The notes beneath the pieces are model-generated. The model was not told the origin of the DNA, did no database searches, and saw only the letters and a list, made by a program, of their open reading frames with translations. From positions 1 through 61,095 of IMG/VR virus record IMGVR_UViG_3300046005_000771: DNA of 61,095 nt. One strand, written 5' to 3'. The position numbers and the translations under genes are program-made. The DNA is from a virus. The stretch's first letter is position 1. Each line of letters starts with the position of its first letter. Shown here piece after piece: positions 8,728 to 61,095 of the stretch.

Positions 8728-10197
8728 TCAATAGTACTCGAACGCAACATCTTGTTGTTTATCCTCTTCCATTAAATCCGTTCCAAGAGAGATAAAATTA
8801 CCTGCCCTAAAACGATTCAAGGCCTGCGTCGTGCTGTCGACCATGTCGTCGTTGTCGCCATTCGGGAATGCAGCGCACTCCTCCACTAATTCCTCTGCCC
8901 AGTCCGTGTCCGGGGCCCACACCATGCCTGCCTCCAAGATAGGGGCCACAGAATGCGCACGCGATACCTTGTCCTGCCCACTGCGTCTACCTCCTGGCGA
9001 ATACATGGTCACAGGAATACCCATCCTACGCAGCTCCTGCTGAAGCGTGATCCCTGTCGCTTTGGCCTCGATCAACACATTGTCAGGCTGCCACTGGTCA
9101 TACTGGTCCTTGGCAATACGTTTTAGCTCCGGGAAGTCCCAGCGTCCGCGCGTGACGTCAAGCAAGATTATGTTAGGCCCTGAGTCTTGGTCCGGGTAGA
9201 ACACGCCCCAGGTCGTGATTACAGAGTAGTCGGCCGTCTCTTTCTTGGAGTATGCCGTATCATACGATTGGATAATATACTCTACGGGGGGTGCTTCGTC
9301 CGAGGGCCACACTTGCCACCAGTCCCTCTTCAATATAGCGCCTTCGTCGTTGGTTGGCTGTTGCTGCCACTGGGCCTGCCACTTCTGTGGGGATAAGGAT
9401 GCTTTGACCGCGAGCAACTCTTCAAGCTTCCAGAACGAGGGCCACAACGGATTGCCGCTAGGCAAGACTGCAGGGAATTCAATAATCTCCCAGCGGTCAG
9501 CATTATGGCTAGTCTGTGCCTTGACAAGCTTTGCCGTTAAGTCCTTCGTGTTCCAACGGGTCATCACAATGACAATAGCACCACCTGGCTGTAGACGCTG
9601 ACGAGGGCCGGAGGTGTACCAGTCCCAGGCGTTCTCCATGGCCAGCTCTGACAAGGCATCCTGCTCTGAGTGCGGGTCATCAATAATCAACAAATCCGCA
9701 CCACGGCCGGTCATCGCGCCGCCAACCCCAACAGCAAAGTATTCCCCGCCATGGTCCGTGTCCCACCGACCCGCGGCCTTGGAGTCCGCTCGAAGGGCCA
9801 CATTATTGAACACCTGCTTATACTCTTCCGAGTCCATCAAGTTACGGACCTTACGGCCGAACCGCACGGCAAGCTCCCCCGTGTGGGTTGCTTGAATGAT
9901 CTTGGTCCGCGGCCGACGGCCCATTATGAACGCGGGTAGCAGATAGGACGAGAACTCAGACTTGGTGTGCCTCGGAGGCATGTTAACGATCAGTCTTTTC
10001 AAGGTCCCATCTGCTAGACGGTTAAAGGCATCTGCCATTTTTGTGTGGTGCGCGCCCAAGATAGCATCGGGCCATACGTATTTGGCAAAGGACAAGAAGT
10101 CCGTTTGCGCTTTCTCCTGCGCTTCTAATTGCAATAGACGAAGCTCTAGTCTGGCCGCTTCAATCGAGGCTTGTTCAGCCGCAGAGGTGCTAAGCAT
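8728..10197 (-). CDS. terL: Terminase large subunit
   Basis: 489 residues, normal for the family. The ATPase domain has the deviant P-loop MPPRHTKSE at about 73-81 and Walker B LLIIDDPHS at about 169-177, followed by VIVMTRWNTKDLT (coupling motif). The RNase H-fold nuclease half shows the acidic triad: IQSYDTAYSKK near 310, NVLIEAKATG near 375, and DNDDMVDSTTQAL near 455. It pumps DNA into the prohead through the portal and cuts the concatemer. It is the first gene of the late block. Its probable small-subunit partner is encoded 7 kb away in another operon. The start is ATG at 10197 with a weak AAAGAGA Shine-Dalgarno. Confidence 0.95.
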   Translation of the reverse strand: MLSTSAAEQASIEAARLELRLLQLEAQEKAQTDFLSFAKYVWPDAILGAHHTKMADAFNRLADGTLKRLIVNMPPRHTKSEFSSYLLPAFIMGRRPRTKIIQATHTGELAVRFGRKVRNLMDSEEYKQVFNNVALRADSKAAGRWDTDHGGEYFAVGVGGAMTGRGADLLIIDDPHSEQDALSELAMENAWDWYTSGPRQRLQPGGAIVIVMTRWNTKDLTAKLVKAQTSHNADRWEIIEFPAVLPSGNPLWPSFWKLEELLAVKASLSPQKWQAQWQQQPTNDEGAILKRDWWQVWPSDEAPPVEYIIQSYDTAYSKKETADYSVITTWGVFYPDQDSGPNIILLDVTRGRWDFPELKRIAKDQYDQWQPDNVLIEAKATGITLQQELRRMGIPVTMYSPGGRRSGQDKVSRAHSVAPILEAGMVWAPDTDWAEELVEECAAFPNGDNDDMVDSTTQALNRFRAGNFISLGTDLMEEDKQQDVAFEYY

Positions 10198-11398: not shown

Positions 11399-12265
11399 AT
11401 GAGCAACCCAATTTATCAGACAGTAACCGACCAAATTATCGCCGAGCTAGAAAAGGGCGCGGCGCCATGGGTAAAGCCATGGCACGCGGACGCGGCCAGC
11501 GGCGCCGACCATAATATCGTGACCGGCGCGGCCTATCGCGGCGTAAACCGGTTAATTCTAGGCATGGCCAGCATGGGCAACGGCTACGCGGCCGGCCAAT
11601 GGGCGACCTATAAGCAATGGCAAGACCGCGGCGCGCAAGTGCTCAAGGGCCAAAAGGGCACGGCCATTTGCTTTTATAAGCCCGTGGCCGGCACGGTAGA
11701 CGCGGCGACCGGCGACAAAATCAACGGCTATGCCGTGCTAAAAGCCTACTCGGTTTTTAACATCGAGCAGACGGACGCCGAGCGCGCACCGGCGGCCGAG
11801 CCCGTGGCCGTGCCATTCGACGCCAGCGAGCATTGCGAGGCGGCCATAGTAAAAACCGGCGCCATTATCCGCCACGGCGGGGACGCGGCATTCTACATGC
11901 CGAGCACGGACGCCGTGCAATTGCCGCATAAAGCAAGTTTCGACAGCGCCGCGCATTATTACGCGACGGCCTTTCATGAATTGGCCCATTGGACCGGCGC
12001 TAAGCATAGGCTGGACCGCGACCACTCCGGCCGTTTTGGGAATCCGGCTTATGCCTTTGAAGAGCTGGTCGCCGAGATAGGCGCCGCCTACCTATGCGCG
12101 GATAACGGCATCGCCGGTGAGCTCCGGCACGCTGGCTATATTCAGAGCTGGCTCAAGGCATGCCGCGACGATAACACGGCCATATTCAAGGCGGCCGCGC
12201 TTGCGCAGAAAGCGGCGGATTATATCAAGGGCACGGCCGAGGCCGTCGAGGCCGAGGCGGCTTAA
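11399..12265 (+). CDS. ardC: ArdC-family antirestriction protein (ssDNA-binding plus zincin metallopeptidase)
   Basis: 288 residues. The N-terminal ArdC domain (about 1-125) starts MSNPIYQTVTDQIIAELEKG and includes PWVKPWH, YRGVNRLILGM and WATYKQWQDRGAQVLKGQKG, all typical of the ArdC/TraC-primase N-terminal ssDNA-binding domain. The C-terminal zincin domain has the metal motif FHELAHWTGAKHRLDRD near residue 190, with downstream FEELVAEIGAAYL, the usual third-ligand region. Known members protect incoming single-stranded DNA against host restriction. It is second in the plus-strand operon, flanked by hairpin modules, and fits early expression against host defences. GC-rich codons suggest acquisition from a plasmid-like source. 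Confidence 0.9.
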   Translation: MSNPIYQTVTDQIIAELEKGAAPWVKPWHADAASGADHNIVTGAAYRGVNRLILGMASMGNGYAAGQWATYKQWQDRGAQVLKGQKGTAICFYKPVAGTVDAATGDKINGYAVLKAYSVFNIEQTDAERAPAAEPVAVPFDASEHCEAAIVKTGAIIRHGGDAAFYMPSTDAVQLPHKASFDSAAHYYATAFHELAHWTGAKHRLDRDHSGRFGNPAYAFEELVAEIGAAYLCADNGIAGELRHAGYIQSWLKACRDDNTAIFKAAALAQKAADYIKGTAEAVEAEAA

Positions 12266-19871: not shown

Positions 19872-20224
19872 GTGTTCTTTTCCTTTAATGCTTGTTCAAT
19901 AGCTTTGGCAAAGTCATCAACGTACACATTACATTCTGTTCCATATTCACCTTCATCAAACAATTCGTAATCAACGTGCAAGTATTTTAAATGACTTAGT
20001 TCATCATCCGTTAATCCTTGCCATGCTGGTTGTTCTAGCGCATCTTTAAACTCAATATCCCTAGCAATGCGTTCGTCTATGGTATGTTTCCAATCCCTTG
20101 TTAGGGGTTGTTCTAGTGCTTCTCTGCAAAGTTCTTTGTAGTTTTTATCAAGTATGTTGTATTTAAGAACTAAATCCTTATAATTTTTTTGAATTAGGTC
20201 TAGTTTTTCTTTATCTGAAATCAT
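19856..20224 (-). CDS. Unknown protein with ALEQP motifs
   Basis: 122 residues; the N-terminal 35 form a Lys/Asp/Asn-rich coiled coil (LIQKNYKDLVLKYNILDKNY). It contains REALEQPLTRDW and KDALEQPAWQG, the same short motif as the next upstream gene (KEALEQPT). Coupled to that gene by ATGA. Multi-copy ALEQP motifs are common in small phage proteins of unknown function. Confidence 0.65.
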   Translation of the reverse strand: MISDKEKLDLIQKNYKDLVLKYNILDKNYKELCREALEQPLTRDWKHTIDERIARDIEFKDALEQPAWQGLTDDELSHLKYLHVDYELFDEGEYGTECNVYVDDFAKAIEQALKEKNTWPLN

Positions 20225-20394
20225 TTTTTATGCCCTTCTGGATTGACTGGTCTATCAACATTTCTGTACAAATCATAATCAATGTTTGACGTTGGTTGTT
20301 CTAGTGCTTCTTTGCAAGCCTTAACTGCCTTTGTATGGTCTGTTCCATATAGCAACGCTTTAATCGCCATCTTTAATGCTTTGTCTTTAGTCAT
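20221..20394 (-). CDS. Small ALEQP-motif protein
   Basis: 57 residues from an ATG at 20394 (an adjacent ATG at 20397 is also possible). Sequence starts MTKDKALKMAIKALLYG and contains CKEALEQPTSNID. The start overlaps the upstream stop and the stop overlaps the next start (ATGA), a tight coupled chain. Confidence 0.6.
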   Translation of the reverse strand: MTKDKALKMAIKALLYGTDHTKAVKACKEALEQPTSNIDYDLYRNVDRPVNPEGHKK

Positions 20395-20647
20395 CATCCA
20401 CCTCTAATTTAATTTTGCCTAAGTATGGCCCATATTGTTTAAATGTTATGTTTCCGTTTTCTAGCCAACCATATACATTTATATACTGTGGCTCTTTAGG
20501 CTGTGGTTTAATGCGGTATGCAAAACCATCCCAAAATGGTGTACCTTTTACCTCATACCATCTGCCATTTTTATCTTGTGCTTCAATCTCCGCACCATCA
20601 GCCCATGCTTTAATTTCTTTGTGCCATTTATGTTGCTTAGTCATCAT
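20387..20647 (-). CDS. Conserved small phage protein (KWHKEIKAWADGAEI family)
   Basis: 86 residues. HKWHKEIKAWADGAEIEAQD, then GRWYEVKGTPFWDGFAYRIKP is a pattern I recognise from many small phage proteins of unknown function. It has a beta-rich centre and an acidic end. It overlaps neighbouring genes on both sides. Confidence 0.7.
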   Translation of the reverse strand: MMTKQHKWHKEIKAWADGAEIEAQDKNGRWYEVKGTPFWDGFAYRIKPQPKEPQYINVYGWLENGNITFKQYGPYLGKIKLEVDDD

Positions 20648-20828
20648 TGTTCTCCTTCAATAGGAAATGAGGCGTGGGCCGTGGTAAACGGACGACGTTA
20701 TTTGAATGAAGTAAGTATTTGCTACCCATTTGCTCCTTGAGCCGTGCAACTTTGCTCTCGCGTAACGCGATAGCGGCATGAAGTTCGGCATCGGGCAATT
20801 GCACACGTGCTAAGTCTATTAGATACAT
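20637..20828 (-). CDS. Unknown small protein
   Basis: 63 residues from the ATG at 20828, preceded by AAAGGAAAATACC (MYLIDLARVQLPDAELHAAI). Amphipathic helix first, basic-proline-rich end (VVRLPRPTPHFLLK). First gene of the leftward small-gene run after the 38-residue membrane peptide. Confidence 0.55.
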   Translation of the reverse strand: MYLIDLARVQLPDAELHAAIALRESKVARLKEQMGSKYLLHSNNVVRLPRPTPHFLLKENNDD

Positions 20829-20901
20829 GGTATTTTCCTTTTCTAACTTTCTGATGAACATAATTCGCCCCAATAATCAGGTTTGAGCAACTAGAATACC
20901 A

Positions 20902-21018
20902 TTATCTATGATTTTGTAAAGCTTTTTCAGCAAAAGTATATGAAACAAGTATACCAAACGACACGCCGAGTAAAAATGCTTCTTTGTAGCACAGGTAATA
21001 ATCGAGGATTTCAGTCAT
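20902..21018 (-). CDS. 38-residue single-span membrane peptide
   Basis: From the ATG at 21018 with an AAGGTG ribosome site: MTEILDYYLCYKEAFLLGV, then SFGILVSYTFAEKAL, one membrane helix and a short basic tail. The first gene left of the HNH gene. Function unknown; small phage membrane peptides often target host envelope processes. Confidence 0.5.
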   Translation of the reverse strand: MTEILDYYLCYKEAFLLGVSFGILVSYTFAEKALQNHR

Positions 21019-21057
21019 TTTTCACCTTGGTAGGATATTTACCATATTTACCATATT

Positions 21058-21086
21058 TTGCATATTAATACGATAAATGTTATAAA
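21058..21086 (+). promoter_or_regulatory. Sigma70-type promoter for the HNH gene
   Basis: TTGCAT at 21058-21063, 17-bp spacer, TATAAA at 21081-21086 on the plus strand, about 29 bases before the HNH start. Just upstream, TTTACCATAT is directly repeated (21039-21058). Confidence 0.65.
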
Positions 21087-21114
21087 GAGTCTTTCTGTAA
21101 GGGTATATTCTACT

Positions 21115-21486
21115 ATGCCGATCAAAGATCCGGAAGAACGAAGACTAAAACAACGGCAGTATTCAAGCAAGCACTACCATTCCAACAGGGAAGCGCACAT
21201 CGAGCGCATACGTTTGCAGAAGATTCGTATGCGGGCCGAGTGGGAAGAGTATAAGTCTACCTTGGAGTGCGTGCAGTGTGGACAGAATCATCCGGCCACG
21301 TTGGACTTCCACCATGTTATCAAAGATCCCGCCAATAGAAAGGTAAGTGAATTGACCCAAAACGGGGCATACAAGCTTGCCCGTGCGGAGATCGAGGCGA
21401 AGTGCGTGGTGTTGTGTGCCAGCTGTCACCGGATATGGCACCATGAAGAGCGCCAGATGAAGGAAGGAAGTTTTTTAGAGCGCTAA
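21115..21486 (+). CDS. HNH endonuclease, free-standing
   Basis: 123 residues from the ATG at 21115. A basic N-terminal helix region (ERRLKQRQYSSKHYH) precedes the HNH core: LECVQCGQNHPATLDFHHVI (Cys pair plus DFHH) and VVLCASCHRIWHHEE (second Cys pair plus His). It is a metal-dependent DNA nuclease of the ββα-metal type. It is encoded against the direction of all its neighbours and carries its own promoter, as expected of a free-standing homing-type endonuclease. No intron is seen. Confidence 0.9.
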   Translation: MPIKDPEERRLKQRQYSSKHYHSNREAHIERIRLQKIRMRAEWEEYKSTLECVQCGQNHPATLDFHHVIKDPANRKVSELTQNGAYKLARAEIEAKCVVLCASCHRIWHHEERQMKEGSFLER

Positions 21487-21846
21487 GTGTAAACCATGGT
21501 ATACAATAGGGCAGTTGTGTTGCCGATAAGTAACAGGTTTTAGTTCAAAACTAAACTAAAAGTGTAGACCTACGCAAATAATTAAACTCAAAAACTGTAT
21601 ATACACACGATGTGTATACAAAACGCCAAAAAATATACACGTTATCAAAACGTGTATACAAAACGCCAAAAAATATACACGTTATCAAAACGTGTATAAA
21701 ATGTCTAAACAAATGTCTAAACTAATAGTTTAGTTCTGAGTAACATATATGTTACCTTAACCTATTTAAAGCGACTTTTATGAATCACTTTGCAAGATAG
21801 TCGCGACTGTTTTAAAGTCGGCTACGATCGTAGTATTTGTAGCTAC
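21487..21846. other. Intergenic region with dyads and tandem repeats
   Basis: 360 bp without a gene. It holds AAACTAAACTAAA repeats (21547-21562), the tandem 40-bp repeat at 21611-21700, two AAATGTCTAAAC copies near 21698-21722, and palindromes such as CTACGATCGTAG (21821-21832). It lies between the HNH gene and the pqqA terminator and looks like an operator or origin array. Confidence 0.6.
21611..21700. repeat. Tandem 40-bp repeat with internal dyads
   Basis: The 40-bp block at 21621-21660 is repeated at 21661-21700 with one mismatch, and the preceding ten bases extend the pattern by a quarter unit. Each junction contains TATACACG, 9 bases, CGTGTATA, an 8-bp-arm dyad, so two identical protein-binding sites lie exactly 40 bp apart (near four helical turns). 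Confidence 0.85.
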
Positions 21847-21876
21847 AAAAAACCCCGCGTAGTCTCCTAGGCGGGG
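21847..21876 (-). terminator. Rho-independent terminator of pqqA
   Basis: On the minus strand CCCCGC, a 12-base loop, GCGGGG, then T6. The stem begins 22 bases after the pqqA stop, so transcription of the little gene is terminated directly behind it. Confidence 0.85.
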
Positions 21877-21898
21877 TGTGTATATACAATGTATATAC

Positions 21899-21970
21899 TT
21901 ATTTGTTCATTACGTACATTGTCACTTCGAAGCCAAAGCGCATTTCAGTTGCAGCTGGAGTTGTCCACAT
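21899..21970 (-). CDS. pqqA: PqqA: pyrroloquinoline quinone precursor peptide
   Basis: 23 residues, starting MWTTPAATEMRFGFEVTMY and ending VMNK. It matches cellular PqqA (recalled Pseudomonas type: MWTKPAYTDLRIGFEVTMY) at most positions, with the same length class and the Glu15-x3-Tyr19 pair that the radical-SAM enzyme PqqE crosslinks, bound by PqqD, to build PQQ. PqqA is the substrate, consumed one per cofactor. Start: ATG at 21970 with AAGGA eight bases upstream. The gene has its own terminator and a dyad-rich leader and lies last after small early genes. No pqqB, C, D or E occurs in the genome, so host enzymes must process it. Too short for usual gene finders. Confidence 0.92.
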   Translation of the reverse strand: MWTTPAATEMRFGFEVTMYVMNK

Positions 21971-21978
21971 GATGTTAG

Positions 21979-22041
21979 TCCTTAATATATATTAAGCAAA
22001 AGTGCTTGTGTGTAATAATCCGCCAAATACTACACACAAGC
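21979..22041 (-). promoter_or_regulatory. Dyad-rich leader of pqqA
   Basis: Two structures lie between the upstream gene and pqqA. GCTTGTGTGTA (22004-22014) and TACACACAAGC (22031-22041) are perfect 11-bp arms 16 bp apart: an operator or RNA hairpin. The 16-bp palindrome CTTAATATATATTAAG (21981-21996) overlaps the AAGGA ribosome site (21979-21983), so a weak RNA hairpin could mask it. No confident -35/-10 pair was found. Confidence 0.65.
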
Positions 22042-22077
22042 CATACGGATAATCATTAATCGCAAAAAAGTGATACA

Positions 22078-22161
22078 TTACTTAGCCAACTTCTTAGCGT
22101 TCTCTTTCATCTTACTAAGTATCAATAAGAAGCGTAGCTCTTCCATTTCGGCTTCGGTCAT
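22078..22161 (-). CDS. 27-residue unknown peptide
   Basis: From the ATG at 22161 (AGGGAGAAGTGT upstream): MTEAEMEELRFLLILSKMKE then NAKKLAK. An amphipathic helix, acidic at the start and basic at the end. It overlaps the upstream membrane-protein gene as ATGA, which together with a strong ribosome site supports translation. Confidence 0.55.
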   Translation of the reverse strand: MTEAEMEELRFLLILSKMKENAKKLAK

Positions 22162-22376
22162 ACACTTCTCCCTATATAAGTTGCCTTAACGTTATCTTTG
22201 AACTGCAAAGTCACAGCGCACTCTTGCCCTTTGTTTCCATTAAAAAGTTTATAAACTCCAAATCCCATAGCAAGAATTGCAATGGTCAGTAGGGTCGCCA
22301 CGATTACTACGGCTCTATCTCCACTACGATCGCACTGGCAATCACGCCCTTGGTTGCACTGTTGGCTACACGGCAT
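22158..22376 (-). CDS. Small membrane protein with Cys-rich N-terminus
   Basis: 72 residues. The N-terminal 15 hold four Cys (MPCSQQCNQGRDCQCDRSGD), then one membrane helix (VVIVATLLTIAILAMGFGVY) and a 30-residue polar tail. Its start overlaps the previous gene's end. A Cys cluster beside a membrane span could bind metal; function unknown. Confidence 0.65.
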   Translation of the reverse strand: MPCSQQCNQGRDCQCDRSGDRAVVIVATLLTIAILAMGFGVYKLFNGNKGQECAVTLQFKDNVKATYIGRSV

Positions 22377-22518
22377 CTTCGTTCTCCTTTTCCACAGGTT
22401 TAGGCGTGTCGTCTAGCTTGACTGACCAGTCGATCTCACCGTAATTCTTGTCAAACTTGTCGTTCTCGTTTACTTTAGACTGGATTTTGTCTCCAGTGAT
22501 ATCGTTACGGGCTACCAT
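22366..22518 (-). CDS. Small conserved phage protein (ARNDITGD family)
   Basis: 50 residues from the ATG at 22518: MVARNDITGDKIQSKVNEN and further charged residues. The N-terminal ARNDITGD-I-SK pattern is one I recognise in short phage proteins of unknown function. It overlaps its neighbours by 7 and 11 bases. Confidence 0.65.
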   Translation of the reverse strand: MVARNDITGDKIQSKVNENDKFDKNYGEIDWSVKLDDTPKPVEKENEDAV

Positions 22519-22769
22519 TGCATCTCTCCTATCTCTTCTACACTAAAAGGATCCACCTCTTCGGTACTATCCTCTTTAAGCGTATAGTATTCTTTCAAGG
22601 CGTCCTCGTGCAGGCCCGCGAGCCGTGAGAATTTAAACGCGTACACTTGCGCAAAAGACATCAACAATGAAGCTGGAATCGCTTCTTCTGATTCTGCCAT
22701 AGCACGTAGGTCATCCACGACCATCCAACAATCCATAATGCTTTCTTCCATATCTGTATATACACTCAT
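22512..22769 (-). CDS. Unknown acidic helical protein
   Basis: 85 residues (MSVYTDMEESIMDCWMVVDD), helical, ending in an acidic EEVDPFSVEEIGEMQW. AAGGAGCAAAAA is a clear ribosome site for the ATG at 22769. Confidence 0.65.
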   Translation of the reverse strand: MSVYTDMEESIMDCWMVVDDLRAMAESEEAIPASLLMSFAQVYAFKFSRLAGLHEDALKEYYTLKEDSTEEVDPFSVEEIGEMQW

Positions 22770-22799
22770 TTTTTGCTCCTTAAGCTCATTTTGTTCTCC

Positions 22800-22958
22800 T
22801 TAAAGGTCGTTCGCTATTTCAAGTTCGACGATGTCTATTTCCGTCAACTTGTCATTGGGTAGTTTTACCATTGCAGTAGTAGGGAAGTGACCCACACTAA
22901 TTACTTCAACAACACATTCACCCTTTTGCCACCACATCCATTGATACAAATGATTCAT
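22800..22958 (-). CDS. Small unknown protein
   Basis: 52 residues from the ATG at 22958: MNHLYQWMWWQKGECVVEVI, then VGHFPTTAMVKLPND and an acidic end. Compact beta-like pattern with Trp-rich start. No clear Shine-Dalgarno, so confidence is moderate. Confidence 0.5.
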   Translation of the reverse strand: MNHLYQWMWWQKGECVVEVISVGHFPTTAMVKLPNDKLTEIDIVELEIANDL

Positions 22959-22975
22959 TTTATTTATCTGCATAA

Positions 22976-23155
22976 TTAGTCTCTCTTTCCATTTGCCGCG
23001 TCGCGGGCATCTCGTTCGGCTTCTTTTTGAAACCGTATGTATATATTCTCAATAAGAATTCCAATAGATAGATAGTCAGGATCGTGCATACCTTTAACAA
23101 TGCCCGCCACTGTCTGCCCAAAGGCCTCTGCGTTCTTTTCATCTAGTTTATCCAT
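22976..23155 (-). CDS. Unknown small protein
   Basis: 59 residues from the ATG at 23155 (MDKLDEKNAEAFGQTVAGIV), which overlaps the upstream stop as TAATG. Helical, with a charged tail (KEAERDARDAANGKRD). An upstream in-frame TTG was discounted. Confidence 0.55.
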   Translation of the reverse strand: MDKLDEKNAEAFGQTVAGIVKGMHDPDYLSIGILIENIYIRFQKEAERDARDAANGKRD

Positions 23156-24696: not shown

Positions 24697-26562
24697 TTAA
24701 CGTGCTCCGCCCCATGAATTACCTATTTCTACGTCTACTTTGCTGGGAACTTCGAGTTCCACAGCGTTTCGCATGATTTCTGCGGCCTGTAATGCCTCGT
24801 CACGGTTCTTAACAGACACGGCAACCTCATCGTGCACCTGTAAAAGGATACGGAAGCCTGCTTTATGTAATGCAATCATCGCCGCTTTGGTTTGGTCGGC
24901 GGCAGAGCCTTGGATTAAACGGTTCAAACCCTTATAAGTACCGGCACGCTTGATCCTTGGTCCGTATTCCGAGACGGCTTGTTCGTAAGGAAGCGCCTTG
25001 TTCACGCCCCATGCGATTGGTTCCCATAATGGGAACCTACATTTACGTCCCAACAAGGTGCGAATAGCGCCATTGGACGCAGGCTTTTCAATACGGCGCA
25101 TGACCGCGTCGACTGTACCGCGTAGAAAGGGCACTTTGTTGTGGAAAGTGGTCATCAATTCACTGGCTTCGTCCACAGGAAGGTCCAACTGGCCGGCTAA
25201 TTTGTTCTTGCCCATGCCATACATCAAGCCTAAGCCGATTGTCTTGGCTTGTTTACGCTCAATGCCTGCCATGTCGGCCACCATCTGATGGAAATCAGTG
25301 TCAGGATTGTCCCGATAGGCTTGTGCCATCTTCTCTGCACCGTCTAAACCGATAAGCGTAGCGTAATGCACTAGCAAACGTGGCTCTTGTGATGAGAAGT
25401 CGTTCGCGGCCCATAGCTCGCCCTCTTCAGGAAGGAATAAAGAGCGCACTAAGGGGCCTATGACCTCGTGTCTTGCTGGGACCTGCTGCAGGTTAGGCTG
25501 GGACATGGAAAGCCTGCCAGTGACCGTGCCGCCATCGTCAGAGCGAAGTTGATTGACATGTGGATGTATGCGTCCATCGGCCGCTGAAAAGTCCAGGTAA
25601 GGCTGTAAGAACGTTCCGTGGGTCTTGTTTAGCTCGCGTGCTTCTACAATCATCTTAGCGATAGGGTGTGCGTTGCCATCTAGGAAAGATTTAGTGAAGC
25701 TTGGTGCGCCGGCCTCGGTCCTTGGGTACTTGATATTAAGCTTGTCGAATGCAGTAGCGATACTAGACGCGGCCCATATATCGACGTGATTGCCCACTTC
25801 TTTCTTAATGTCCATCAAATACTGCTGTTCTTTGCGCTTCATGTCCTTGATCAGCTTCTCTGCGTTCTCGCGATCAAAGCGAACACCTTTAAATGTTAGG
25901 TCGATAAGGATAGGGAGCATCTCGGTTTCAATACCGAAGATGGACTCGACTTCTTCTTTACGCAGTAGCGTCTGCAGATGATGCCAAAGCTTCAATGTCA
26001 ATGCCGCATCTTGCTCGGCATAGTCGCCCACATACATGGCAGGCAACTTCCATAGTTCTTTCTTAGGGTGCACGCCGAAGTCGGCGGCCGCGTCTTTAAG
26101 TCCTTGCTCGGACTTGGTCTCTTTGAGCATGTCAAAGCCTAGGCTGTTCAGTGCGAATGAGAAACGGTTCTCGTCCACAATTGCAGCTGCGAGCATGGTA
26201 TCAATGATGCGTCCGTTGACCTCAAAGCCTTGTGCTTTAAGCCAGCCAGTATCGTATGCCGCGTTGTGCATAATCTTGTCGCAGGGCAATGCCAAGGTCT
26301 TCTTGACCCAGCGCTCCACAATGCCTTTATCTAGATTGCCTCCGCCATGATGTGCCACGGGGAAGTAGCCCTTCCATCCGTCTACTGCGAACGCGTAGCC
26401 GACGATGTAGCCATCTTTACGAGGCCAGCCTGGACCAAACTTCTCCATGTTAGGGTCGCATGTCTCCAAGTCGATTGCAATTTCCGTTGCCTGAGACAGG
26501 TCAGGAAAGCTCTGAGGAGGTAGCCATTCAGAGGACGTGGGGAATAGTGATCTGGGTTTCAT
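24697..26562 (-). CDS. polA: DNA polymerase I (family A) with 3'-5' exonuclease
   Basis: 621 residues, with no 5' nuclease domain. Exonuclease motifs: Exo I IDLETCD at 30-36, Exo II HNAAYD near 98, Exo III YAEQDAALTLKLW near 183. Polymerase motifs: A NDFSSQEPRLL near 400, B KQAKTIGLGLMYGMG near 450, C QVHDEV at 575-580. The residue matching E. coli Phe762 is Leu, a variant linked in viral ecology studies to altered fidelity/speed and often slower lifestyles. It replicates the phage genome together with the adjacent helicase and primase. It overlaps the helicase gene by four bases. Confidence 0.95.
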   Translation of the reverse strand: MKPRSLFPTSSEWLPPQSFPDLSQATEIAIDLETCDPNMEKFGPGWPRKDGYIVGYAFAVDGWKGYFPVAHHGGGNLDKGIVERWVKKTLALPCDKIMHNAAYDTGWLKAQGFEVNGRIIDTMLAAAIVDENRFSFALNSLGFDMLKETKSEQGLKDAAADFGVHPKKELWKLPAMYVGDYAEQDAALTLKLWHHLQTLLRKEEVESIFGIETEMLPILIDLTFKGVRFDRENAEKLIKDMKRKEQQYLMDIKKEVGNHVDIWAASSIATAFDKLNIKYPRTEAGAPSFTKSFLDGNAHPIAKMIVEARELNKTHGTFLQPYLDFSAADGRIHPHVNQLRSDDGGTVTGRLSMSQPNLQQVPARHEVIGPLVRSLFLPEEGELWAANDFSSQEPRLLVHYATLIGLDGAEKMAQAYRDNPDTDFHQMVADMAGIERKQAKTIGLGLMYGMGKNKLAGQLDLPVDEASELMTTFHNKVPFLRGTVDAVMRRIEKPASNGAIRTLLGRKCRFPLWEPIAWGVNKALPYEQAVSEYGPRIKRAGTYKGLNRLIQGSAADQTKAAMIALHKAGFRILLQVHDEVAVSVKNRDEALQAAEIMRNAVELEVPSKVDVEIGNSWGGAR

Positions 26563-46325: not shown

Positions 46326-47469
46326 ACGGTAACTCCTGCTGGTATGCCAGTGCATCGTTCAATTGAATCTCTTGAATCTGCATAGGCTTGTTTAAAATCT
46401 CTAGGCTCAACACAATCCCAAAGCCTGGCACTAGTTCCTTGCCCTTGGGTGCTTGCGGTGCTGTCGGTGTTTGTGTTGTCTCTTGGGTCGTAGTCGTTGC
46501 AGTGGGCGCAGGGGAAGCTGGTATGCTCGGCATCTCCATTGCTGGTTGCTCTTGTTGCTGTACTACTGTCTCCTGCATCGTTGGTGCTATTGGACTGACT
46601 GGATTCAACGGACTGCTCATGTTCGTTACGTTGGTTGGACTCTTGGTGCAGGTATCCTGAGTCACCATCCAGCTGCTCCACACAGGCTCGCTGTAAGGTG
46701 TCGCGCAACTCGACATCCTGTTTTCCGTTACTGCTCCGATGTAATCTTCCTGACATGCTAAAGTCCTAACCTGCGTTGATACTGAACACGTTGCCGGGTC
46801 TGGTGTGCATGAATTTGACACCGTTGTCCACACGCCTTCCGTTGGTTGTCCATACGGGTCCGAGCAAACGCTTGTCTTGGTTTGCTGTATTGAGCCTGAA
46901 AAGTTTTGTGGACATACTAAGCTTTGGCTTTCAACGGCTGTTTGGCAGGTTGGCGGAGCGGCTTGGCAAGACCTGCTGATTTCAAACCATCCTGAGTCGA
47001 CTGGAGAGCCGTAGGGGTCGGGACAGTTTTGTTCTCTTTTAAACGTGACCGAGCCGATTTGGTTACTCCCACAGGCCTGCCTCTCTTCGGTGACGGCGCT
47101 GTAGGTGCAGCTTGCTTGGTTGGGTGTACAATTGTCAGAAGTAGTTGTCCAAGGGGTAAAACTCTGGCTTTGACACTGATAAGTGCGACTTTGATTGACT
47201 GAACCGCTGTGATTAGGGGCACAAGCAAGACTTTGATATTCAACATGGTCTGTACAGCTAGGCGGTACAGGTTGACCACATTCTGGAATACCTGGGTAAT
47301 ACTGGCAAGCAATTGCTTGGCACTGGGCAAGATCCGTTCCTTGACCAACGTAGAGACTCGAATATACCGGGCCATAACTAGTCCATTGACTTGCTGCACA
47401 ATACGCGTAAACATAGCTACTCCTTATGAGAGTCAGGAAGAGGAGTGATAAGAACGAAGTCTTTACCAT
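46183..47469 (-). CDS. Secreted cysteine-rich four-repeat protein
   Basis: 428 residues from the ATG at 47469 (GAGG six bases upstream). A clean signal peptide (MVKTSFLSLLFLTLI, then RSSYVYA) is followed by a Cys-rich head and four repeats of about 50 residues: C-x9-12-C-x4-GS-V/I-x8-C-x-DPYG-P-x5-W-x6-C (for example SGSIQQTKTSVCSDPYGQ). The pattern recalls thrombospondin type 1-like modules but is not an evident match. A Pro/Thr/Gln linker (TTTTQETTQTPTAPQAP) and a hydrophobic C-terminus follow. It overlaps the upstream gene (53 bases) and the downstream gene (143 bases). Exported, probably disulphide-bonded; possibly envelope or host-surface acting. Confidence 0.7.
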   Translation of the reverse strand: MVKTSFLSLLFLTLIRSSYVYAYCAASQWTSYGPVYSSLYVGQGTDLAQCQAIACQYYPGIPECGQPVPPSCTDHVEYQSLACAPNHSGSVNQSRTYQCQSQSFTPWTTTSDNCTPNQASCTYSAVTEERQACGSNQIGSVTFKREQNCPDPYGSPVDSGWFEISRSCQAAPPTCQTAVESQSLVCPQNFSGSIQQTKTSVCSDPYGQPTEGVWTTVSNSCTPDPATCSVSTQVRTLACQEDYIGAVTENRMSSCATPYSEPVWSSWMVTQDTCTKSPTNVTNMSSPLNPVSPIAPTMQETVVQQQEQPAMEMPSIPASPAPTATTTTQETTQTPTAPQAPKGKELVPGFGIVLSLEILNKPMQIQEIQLNDALAYQQELPYELKGNQGILLELLSENAISSSFWSISADRWNNLRRHNDLQPSYSGD

Positions 47470-47935
47470 AAATCGCCTCAAACCAATCGGGGTGTAAGTC
47501 ATACCACGCCTTTCTTGCTGCATCACCAATAGCGCCGCCTATAGGACAGGGACTGCCCGACATCTCCATAGCGACCCAGTTTTCATGGTTGGCTGCACAA
47601 GCAAGAGATACTGCCGCAACCTTTAGTCCACTATCGCTTAGGAACTTAGCCCAACGTAACTTAACGCAGTTGTTGTCCGTAACCATCGTTCCACCGGCTA
47701 CAGAAAATATCCCACCGTTGACAGCACCACTAATGCCAATGCTGCAAACATCTTGACTGAAAGCTGACATCGAAGGAGCCATAGCAGAGGGGACAGGTTG
47801 ACCCTTATAATTAATTGTTGTTTCGTCCGCATACGCTACTCCTACGGCTAATAGACCGCCGATTAAAAAACCTAGTAGTAAATACCCTAGGCTTTTTATA
47901 TTTGATCGGCAGTGTCTGTGATGAGGTAAATTCAT
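47417..47935 (-). CDS. Exported protein of the lysis region
   Basis: 172 residues. N-terminal basic stretch, hydrophobic helix (LGYLLLGFLIGGLLAVGVAYA) with an AYA-type cleavage site, then a mature part with paired Cys: QDVCSIGISGAVNGG, NNCVKLRWAKFLSDSGLKVA, LACAANHENW, GSPCPIGG. This LKLAK-L-GLKVAAV-C pattern is familiar from exported proteins near lysis genes of aquatic phages; function not known. Confidence 0.7.
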   Translation of the reverse strand: MNLPHHRHCRSNIKSLGYLLLGFLIGGLLAVGVAYADETTINYKGQPVPSAMAPSMSAFSQDVCSIGISGAVNGGIFSVAGGTMVTDNNCVKLRWAKFLSDSGLKVAAVSLACAANHENWVAMEMSGSPCPIGGAIGDAARKAWYDLHPDWFEAIYGKDFVLITPLPDSHKE

Positions 47936-60280: not shown

Positions 60281-60293
60281 CCTTCTAATTGCA

Positions 60294-60320
60294 ATAAAAA
60301 AGCCACCCGAAGGTGGCTTT
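60294..60320 (-). terminator. Rho-independent terminator after the major capsid gene (UUCG loop)
   Basis: On the minus strand AAAGCCACC, TTCG, GGTGGCTTT, then further Ts (complement of the AAAAAA run). It begins 23 bases after the capsid stop, so abundant capsid transcripts end here. Same tetraloop as the terminator at 18772. Confidence 0.92.
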
Positions 60321-60343: not shown

Positions 60344-61095
60344 TTAAGGTGTACCTGGGCAACCGAAGATACCGCGTGGATCGCTGTAGCCAAAGCTATA
60401 ACGCTCACGTGCTTTGTAGCGTACGTTACCTGTATCAAAATCACCTTCAAAACCAGTTTTGAACGCAACACGTTCAAACATTTTCATGCCGTTAGGAGCA
60501 TCAGTTTTGATGAACCAAGCGTCTGGGTCTGTTAAGTAATGGTTTACTGTGTAGCCTTGTGGAACCATACCCATGTTTTTGATAGCGTTGATATCGTTAT
60601 CAGCAGTACCAACACGTAGAGTAGATTTCAAGATGCGGTCTGAGGTAAATTGTAGTTCTTTTGGAACAATCAATTTCAAGCCACGAACAGCGATTTTTAA
60701 ACCACGCTCATCAGTGAATGCTGCGATGTCAATCAAAGCTTGCTCAAGCGATGTTTCGCTTAAGTCGGCTGGAGTTGTCAACTCGTTGCGTAGATCTGGA
60801 CCAGACAATGTTGGATGGTCAGTTGCACACAAAGGTTTGCCGTCGCCGCCGATTGCTGTAGTAAACGCATTGTTTAATACGGCTGCTGCTTTGATTTGTT
60901 TTGTTGTTGCCATTGAACGAGCTAATGCTTTGGTGTAACGAGCAGCAAGTGATGCGTACAAGTTATCCTCAACAGCTTCTTCAGTTAATGAATAAGCCAA
61001 AGCAATGGTTTCGTGTGTGTAGCGAGCTGTGTAAACTTCTTGAGCATTGTCGTATGAAACGCCAGCACCCTCAGTTTTAACAGGAGCTTCACCGA
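60344..61095 (-). CDS. Major capsid protein, C-terminal part (wraps across contig ends)
   Basis: Codons from about 95 onward (the last 127 bases repeat window start). Segments: ALAYSLTEEAVEDNLYASLA, AVLNNAFTTAIGGDGKPLCA with DHPTLSG, VPKELQFTSDRILKSTLRVG and a C-terminal RERYSFGYSDPRGIFGCPG. The RYTKALARSMATTKQIKAA helix and D-K-L-C-DHP-LSG loop match capsid proteins of uncultured aquatic podoviruses, with HK97-type fold expected. Stop at 60344, then the terminator. Confidence 0.88.
   Translation of the reverse strand, partial: GEAPVKTEGAGVSYDNAQEVYTARYTHETIALAYSLTEEAVEDNLYASLAARYTKALARSMATTKQIKAAAVLNNAFTTAIGGDGKPLCATDHPTLSGPDLRNELTTPADLSETSLEQALIDIAAFTDERGLKIAVRGLKLIVPKELQFTSDRILKSTLRVGTADNDINAIKNMGMVPQGYTVNHYLTDPDAWFIKTDAPNGMKMFERVAFKTGFEGDFDTGNVRYKARERYSFGYSDPRGIFGCPGTP
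60969..61095. repeat. Terminal direct repeat, right copy (contig-closure overlap)
   Basis: Identical to 1-127; see the left copy. Counting it once gives a 60,968-bp circle. Confidence 0.95.

Follow-up and report, generated by a model that had tools for sequence, protein, structure and literature searches.

A gene for PqqA, the 23-residue precursor peptide of the redox cofactor PQQ, lies on the minus strand at 21899-21970 of IMG/VR virus record IMGVR_UViG_3300046005_000771, and it probably acts as an auxiliary metabolic gene of the phage, supplying substrate to the PQQ pathway of the host. The record was analysed over its whole length of 61,095 nucleotides, hereafter the window. The gene stands in a phage genome with isolate relatives, is a homologue of a host metabolic gene and is under selection, which are three of the marks of an auxiliary gene. 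The recurrence of pqqA in many viruses linked to methylotrophs suggests that it helps keep methanol oxidation running during infection. An earlier note on this DNA had proposed that the phage tops up the substrate of the host pathway, and judged by sequence this proposal gains support, as it came through the checks on family match, retention at the locus and retention of the reacting Glu and Tyr.

The minus strand of 21899-21970 reads exactly as a 23-codon open reading frame, MWTTPAATEMRFGFEVTMYVMNK, followed by a stop codon; the plus-strand reading of the same positions gives no such gene. The earlier note had described this reading with no strand given, and its two expression signals were both located. 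The Shine-Dalgarno sequence AAGGA, read directly, lies at 21979-21983 on the minus strand, eight nucleotides before the ATG, and an intrinsic terminator on the same strand (21847-21876) begins 22 bases 3' of the stop with a G+C-rich hairpin (21876-21853) followed by six T (21852-21847). The predicted fold of 21820-21905 has an energy of -28.4 kcal/mol (z = -4.8). A simple terminator scan of the window did not list this hairpin, and its stem contains a mismatch. The peptide matches Pfam PF08042 with E = 3e-10 and 40.3 bits (cut-off 21.1) and NCBIfam TIGR02107 (PqqA) with 38.8 bits (cut-off 20), so that a chance open reading frame is rejected, since the scores pass well beyond both cut-offs and the family match that had been put forward stands far above background. 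The canonical PqqA profile is matched over its full length, both reacting residues included, and the gene has the form of the family, a short free-standing gene (23 codons, against about 22-30 in the family) with a ribosome-binding site. The E-x3-Y pair is present as Glu15 and Tyr19, which correspond to the residues cross-linked by PqqE in characterised PqqA. The consensus given earlier holds as to family membership by both profiles, but not as to the spacing from P to R, which is five residues here and not six. A search of solved structures gave no match to the 23-mer.

Other elements surround the gene. A 14-bp hairpin (22004-22041, minus strand), upstream of the ribosome-binding site, may mark where the preceding transcript ends; the view that it is a regulatory element shared by related loci was rejected, with no clear enrichment (29 of 146 related loci vs 99 of 730 random stretches). 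Further downstream of pqqA, an exact tandem duplication of 40 bp that holds terminator-like hairpins (21612-21691) lies between the gene and a plus-strand open reading frame at 21058-21486. Sigma-70-like sites near pqqA numbered three, vs 3.1 expected from shuffles, and because they are no commoner than in shuffled sequence no promoter is claimed.

The window, 61 kb long, probably represents a complete phage genome, because it has a direct terminal repeat of 127 bp (1-127 on the left, 60969-61095 on the right), together with matches to phage genes for terminase, portal, DNA polymerase, primase, helicase, tape-measure and tail-fibre proteins. The terminase large subunit (8728-10197, minus strand; phrog_38, 2.6e-114) and DNA polymerase A (24697-26562, minus strand; phrog_17) place DSL-LC04, HTVC023P and HTVC027P as the nearest named phages. 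The terminase is 78% identical to that of DSL-LC04 and 57-60% identical to those of the pelagiphages HTVC023P and HTVC027P; the polymerase is 78% identical to that of DSL-LC04 and 52% to that of HTVC023P. Over both proteins the two pelagiphages, whose hosts are given as Candidatus Pelagibacter, range from 47 to 60%, and phage 023Pt_psg01 shows 51% (polymerase) and 63% (terminase). Unlike the window, the whole records of DSL-LC04, HTVC023P and HTVC027P have no PqqA match. The window also encodes an ArdC-like anti-restriction protein with a zincin-like peptidase domain (11399-12265; PF08401, PF18818); no tRNA was found in it, and no Rfam match at gathering scores.

The window does not hold a complete PQQ operon with pqqB, C, D and E. 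As had been claimed earlier, these genes are absent: the PqqE profile gave no match, nor did tblastn with PqqB, C, D or E at E <= 1e-3; there is also no profile match to a PQQ alcohol dehydrogenase. PqqE was sought more widely in 48 whole pqqA-bearing records, made up of the window, six isolates, one spring phage and 40 longer IMG/VR contigs. Each of the 48 has exactly one PqqA, none has a PqqE match above the cut-off, and 47 have no match to a PQQ alcohol dehydrogenase (one does). It is quite unlikely that the peptide instead feeds another radical-SAM or peptide-modifying enzyme and yields a product other than PQQ. Radical-SAM enzymes do modify many small peptides, and in one record (G025, 47246-47494) the PqqE radical-SAM profile matches weakly and in part, at 27.7 bits against a cut-off of 381; yet the other 47 records have no such match, and the window peptide matches canonical PqqA over the full profile with both reacting residues. 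A separate observation concerns a 72-kb record (IMGVR_UViG_3300025120_009955) in which pqqA and a PQQ alcohol dehydrogenase of the methanol type lie about 6 kb apart.

Within the lineage of the window itself the gene is sparse. Among 50 whole records of relatives, several of them fragments, PqqA was found in two and not in 48, which counts against pqqA being an old trait of the lineage. Both bearers belong to a group of eight relatives with terminase identity of 95-97%; judged by length and position, the contigs of the other six, and that of a relative with 96% polymerase identity (L251), do not extend to the site that pqqA would occupy. The more distant relatives searched, which include DSL-LC04 and both pelagiphages and of which several are fragmentary, have no PqqA. 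In one bearer (L414) pqqA and its terminator are identical to those of the window, and the sequence upstream is nearly so. The other (L415) has pqqA in the same place with immediate flanks that cannot be aligned and a different terminator, and its gene differs from that of the window at seven codons, all by synonymous changes that leave the peptide the same. The two closest relatives with contigs that cover the site thus bear out the expectation that related phages keep the gene at this locus.

The gene recurs in cultured phages. A tblastn search of the window peptide against 50,697 phage records, with E up to 10, gave 12 records, namely nine Methylophilales phage isolates (P19250A, Venkman, MEP301, MEP401, MEP402 and four Melnitz phages), one Manatee Spring phage and two Acinetobacter contigs. 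The nine are a count and not a share of all such isolates, as the taxonomy also names MEP431-434, HIM624-A, phiMB624-A, Venkman EXVC038S, MG-MtP1 and RSA-MfP1, among others, which did not come up in the searches. The isolates that carry the gene include phages filed as Zobellviridae and Kyanoviridae. In five of the nine the annotation under the match is blank, in four it reads hypothetical protein and in none pqqA; the Manatee Spring record is likewise without a pqqA annotation. Alphaproteobacterial and pseudomonad PqqA queries retrieved no additional records from the same set. Both Acinetobacter contigs bear the name 'Acinetobacter phage MD-2021a', and the one examined in detail (CAKLQF020000010.1) has a pqqABCDE operon beside cellular genes and is apparently host DNA filed as phage.

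Recurrence is much broader among viral contigs. Three pattern scans of IMG/VR gave at least 120 matches each, and 250 pqqA stretches among the matches listed (median 7.6 kb, maximum 14.8 kb) fall into 236 distinct immediate contexts. In 249 of these pqqA is a short free-standing open reading frame with a start no more than 15 nt from the W codon, while in the exception (L535) a GTG 18 nt upstream may serve as the start. A ribosome-binding motif is present in 246 of the 250. Nine of the first 120 matches fit a sub-pattern that itself gives at least 120 matches; by rough extrapolation, viral pqqA contigs in IMG/VR may number around 1,600 or more. A tblastn search with queries from Acinetobacter or methylotrophs found PqqB, C, D or E in none of the 250 stretches, a search confined to stretches of up to 14.8 kb (PqqE alone was sought in the 48 whole records), whereas the same Acinetobacter queries match pqqB-E in 55 of 118 host loci among the matches listed. 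These counts bear on the view that such genes are misassembled or misbinned host DNA and not phage genes at all, as the MD-2021a contig with its whole pqq operon illustrates. That view is so improbable as to be nearly negligible and is rejected, since nine phage isolates carry pqqA, the window has terminal repeats along with terminase, portal, polymerase and tail genes, and pqqB-E were found in none of the 250 viral stretches.

Acquisition of pqqA in several phage lineages is likely, because the neighbouring gene families are varied, few terminases are shared and the isolates belong to different families. Over 149 loci, with neighbouring open reading frames called by a simple finder, 66 families occur upstream and 71 downstream (9 and 8 loci, respectively, have none). 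If any shared flanking family counts as a link, 139 of the 149 loci join one component, which undercuts a simple count of independent acquisitions. Of 49 pqqA-bearing records, some of them fragments, four (the window included) have a terminase at least 50% identical to that of the window, and eight have a match to it at any level.

The sample used to gauge selection on the viral copies comprised 119 of 120 matches listed (one with an N was excluded), 109 of them distinct, with no further filter. The pN/pS ratio was 0.27 over the 14 codons left free by the search pattern and 0.15 over the nine of those free codons from residue 9 onward; with a residue filter applied, and over the codons fixed by neither it nor the pattern, it was 0.30. 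Among the same matches Phe14, which was free in the pattern, is retained in every one of the 119 and Asn22 in 116. In a separate scan that left Glu15 and Tyr19 free, both are retained in 120 of 120 matches listed, so that the loss of the pair that had been named as a check was never seen in the sample. The pN/pS ratios indicate purifying selection on the codons of viral pqqA. There is also strong enrichment of ribosome-binding motifs and terminators at viral pqqA. In a set of 135 sequences of the Methylophilaceae type, 134 of 134 scorable phage pqqA genes have the motif ahead of the start, as do 2207 of 25138 ATGs elsewhere in these loci; a terminator follows within 90 nt for 60 of 133 genes, vs 10 of 665 random stretches. 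A neutral recent acquisition from a host, without function, is for this reason very unlikely and largely refuted. The gene is indeed tiny, cheap and identical to host copies, and among the 50 records of relatives only the closest carry it; against this stand the purifying selection, the enriched signals, the many neighbour contexts and the L415 locus, where the flanks have diverged and the peptide is unchanged.

The peptide also links the phage to a host. Genome contigs were scanned for RFGFEVTMY, which gave at least 118 loci, and among the matches listed the exact 23 residues of the window occur as 24 copies in 23 loci. Twenty of these 23 loci bear the names Methylotenera, Methylophilus, Methylophilaceae or OM43; the other three are named only at a higher rank. 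The G+C content is 46% in the window and 35-49% in the host loci with the identical peptide. These matches point to a member of the Methylophilaceae as the host of the window phage, and the idea that the gene serves as a host marker is strengthened by the presence of the exact peptide in genomes of that family. The Methylophilaceae peptide belongs to the same families (TIGR02107/PF08042) and has the same 23 residues, but the window copy stands in a phage and is not accompanied by pqqBCDE. Copies of pqqA may pass between phage and host, and the peptide may mark the host of uncultured phages. The rest of the window DNA was compared in three pieces (all but 20001-23000, the site of pqqA) with 187 Methylophilaceae genomes, and matches were found in 4, 2 and 7 genomes, the best being 165 bases at 73%; the remaining matches are short or are a common terminator hairpin. 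Exact window matches of 26-29 nt (near 60291-60319) were rejected as a host link because they are hairpin sequence of the terminator type.

The hosts themselves multiply the gene. In a survey of 122 genomes from the family to which an OM43 genome belongs, selected at 90% completeness, pqqA was present in all 122, with a median of four copies, at least two in 118 and up to twelve. A passage of PMC4109929 gives 3-12 pqqA copies and typically a single set of the other pqq genes. Passages of PMC9851590, which also state part of the chemistry of PqqA as the precursor of PQQ, describe a methanol-using production strain with five pqqA copies that are unequally expressed. Because hosts hold several pqqA copies but typically a single set of the remaining genes, a role in topping up the substrate is better motivated. 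One Methylophilaceae bin has a contig (L552; G176 contig C147) in which pqqA lies beside DNA 70% alike to the end of the window; this contig may be phage, and for that reason pqqA counts derived from bins may include phage copies.

PqqE, together with PqqD, joins the Glu and the Tyr of PqqA, and one PqqA is consumed for each PQQ made; the other proteins of the pathway are catalysts or chaperones. In the proposed mechanism the phage would produce PqqA as a genuine precursor peptide of the host type, the PqqD and PqqE of the host, with the rest of the pathway, would cross-link and trim it to PQQ, and PQQ would load the PQQ-dependent methanol dehydrogenase in the periplasm of the Methylophilaceae host. 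A phage that stops host expression would need to replace only PqqA, because PqqA is consumed one-for-one and the other proteins are reusable catalysts, and such a phage would gain most per base from pqqA alone, because hosts multiply this gene and typically not the rest. The enzyme that benefits would have to be that of the host, since nearly all whole records lack a PQQ alcohol dehydrogenase. Keeping PQQ-loaded methanol dehydrogenase active would be the likely effect; we infer that the gene would be expressed in infection, that its peptide would be processed to PQQ, and that methanol oxidation and phage yield would be affected. If PqqE rather than PqqA limits the flux, extra peptide would be of little benefit.

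The same peptide could be imagined as a decoy or inhibitor that occupies PqqD or PqqE and so lowers PQQ synthesis in the host or diverts the enzymes. PqqA binds PqqD in characterised systems, and the phage is without the rest of the pathway. A decoy could do without Glu and Tyr, yet the pair is retained in every match listed; the window peptide is letter-for-letter a host PqqA, and the hosts themselves hold several pqqA copies. This explanation is therefore unlikely, and supply of substrate is the preferred reading. Cyanophage psbA offers a parallel, in which a phage replaces a fast-used component of the energy system of the host, there a protein subunit that suffers damage and has to be renewed. 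PqqA is alike in that a consumed component is replaced, and differs in being a substrate that becomes a cofactor and not a subunit. The balance of evidence leans toward pqqA as a recurrent, nearly hidden core auxiliary gene of methylotroph phages, a 'psbA of methylotrophy' carried independently by unrelated phages with the gene-dosage logic of their hosts and sustaining methanol oxidation within infected cells of lakes and coastal seas. If this is so, phages of abundant methylotrophs affect carbon flow through a 72-base gene that annotation misses, by supplying a consumed peptide substrate rather than an enzyme. The gene would then offer a clean test of which component limits PQQ synthesis and a short host tag linking uncultured phages to methylotrophic hosts. 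Isolated pairs of pqqA-bearing phage and host exist and are open to direct testing.

Phage PqqA itself is already known, and the class-wide pattern seems unreported. The novelty that the earlier note implied is weaker, as passages of PMC7678222 (2020) report PqqA in the Lake Baikal phage population VP_266, together with methanol dehydrogenase. VP_266 in those passages resembles the window in having PqqA in a presumed methylotroph phage, where it is proposed to enhance methanol oxidation, and differs in encoding methanol dehydrogenase, which the window is without; the evidence given here on recurrence, selection and host copy number is absent from the same passages. The pairing of pqqA with a methanol-type dehydrogenase in the 72-kb record (L055, with L249 and L250) resembles the Baikal population. 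A passage of PMC13188868 lists pqqA, pqqE and pqqD among viral genes. The main texts of three OM43 phage papers (PMC8024684, PMC10580990 and PMC8163748) do not contain 'pqq', and that of a fourth (PMC9004378) names PQQ only as a medium supplement, with no pqqA in phages. A wide pattern of stand-alone phage pqqA was not found in the open-licence papers searched.

The viral copies are not all of one type. Among the 250 viral pqqA genes, 44 fall outside the regular expression for Methylophilaceae (for example L013, L023, L028, L034, L038, L035 and L093), and these comprise a few near-variants, types resembling Methylococcales hosts and unplaced RLGFEVTMYFKN types. One further type among them resembles the PqqA of Klebsiella. 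Because the 44 include types other than those of the Methylophilaceae, phages of other PQQ makers may carry pqqA as well.
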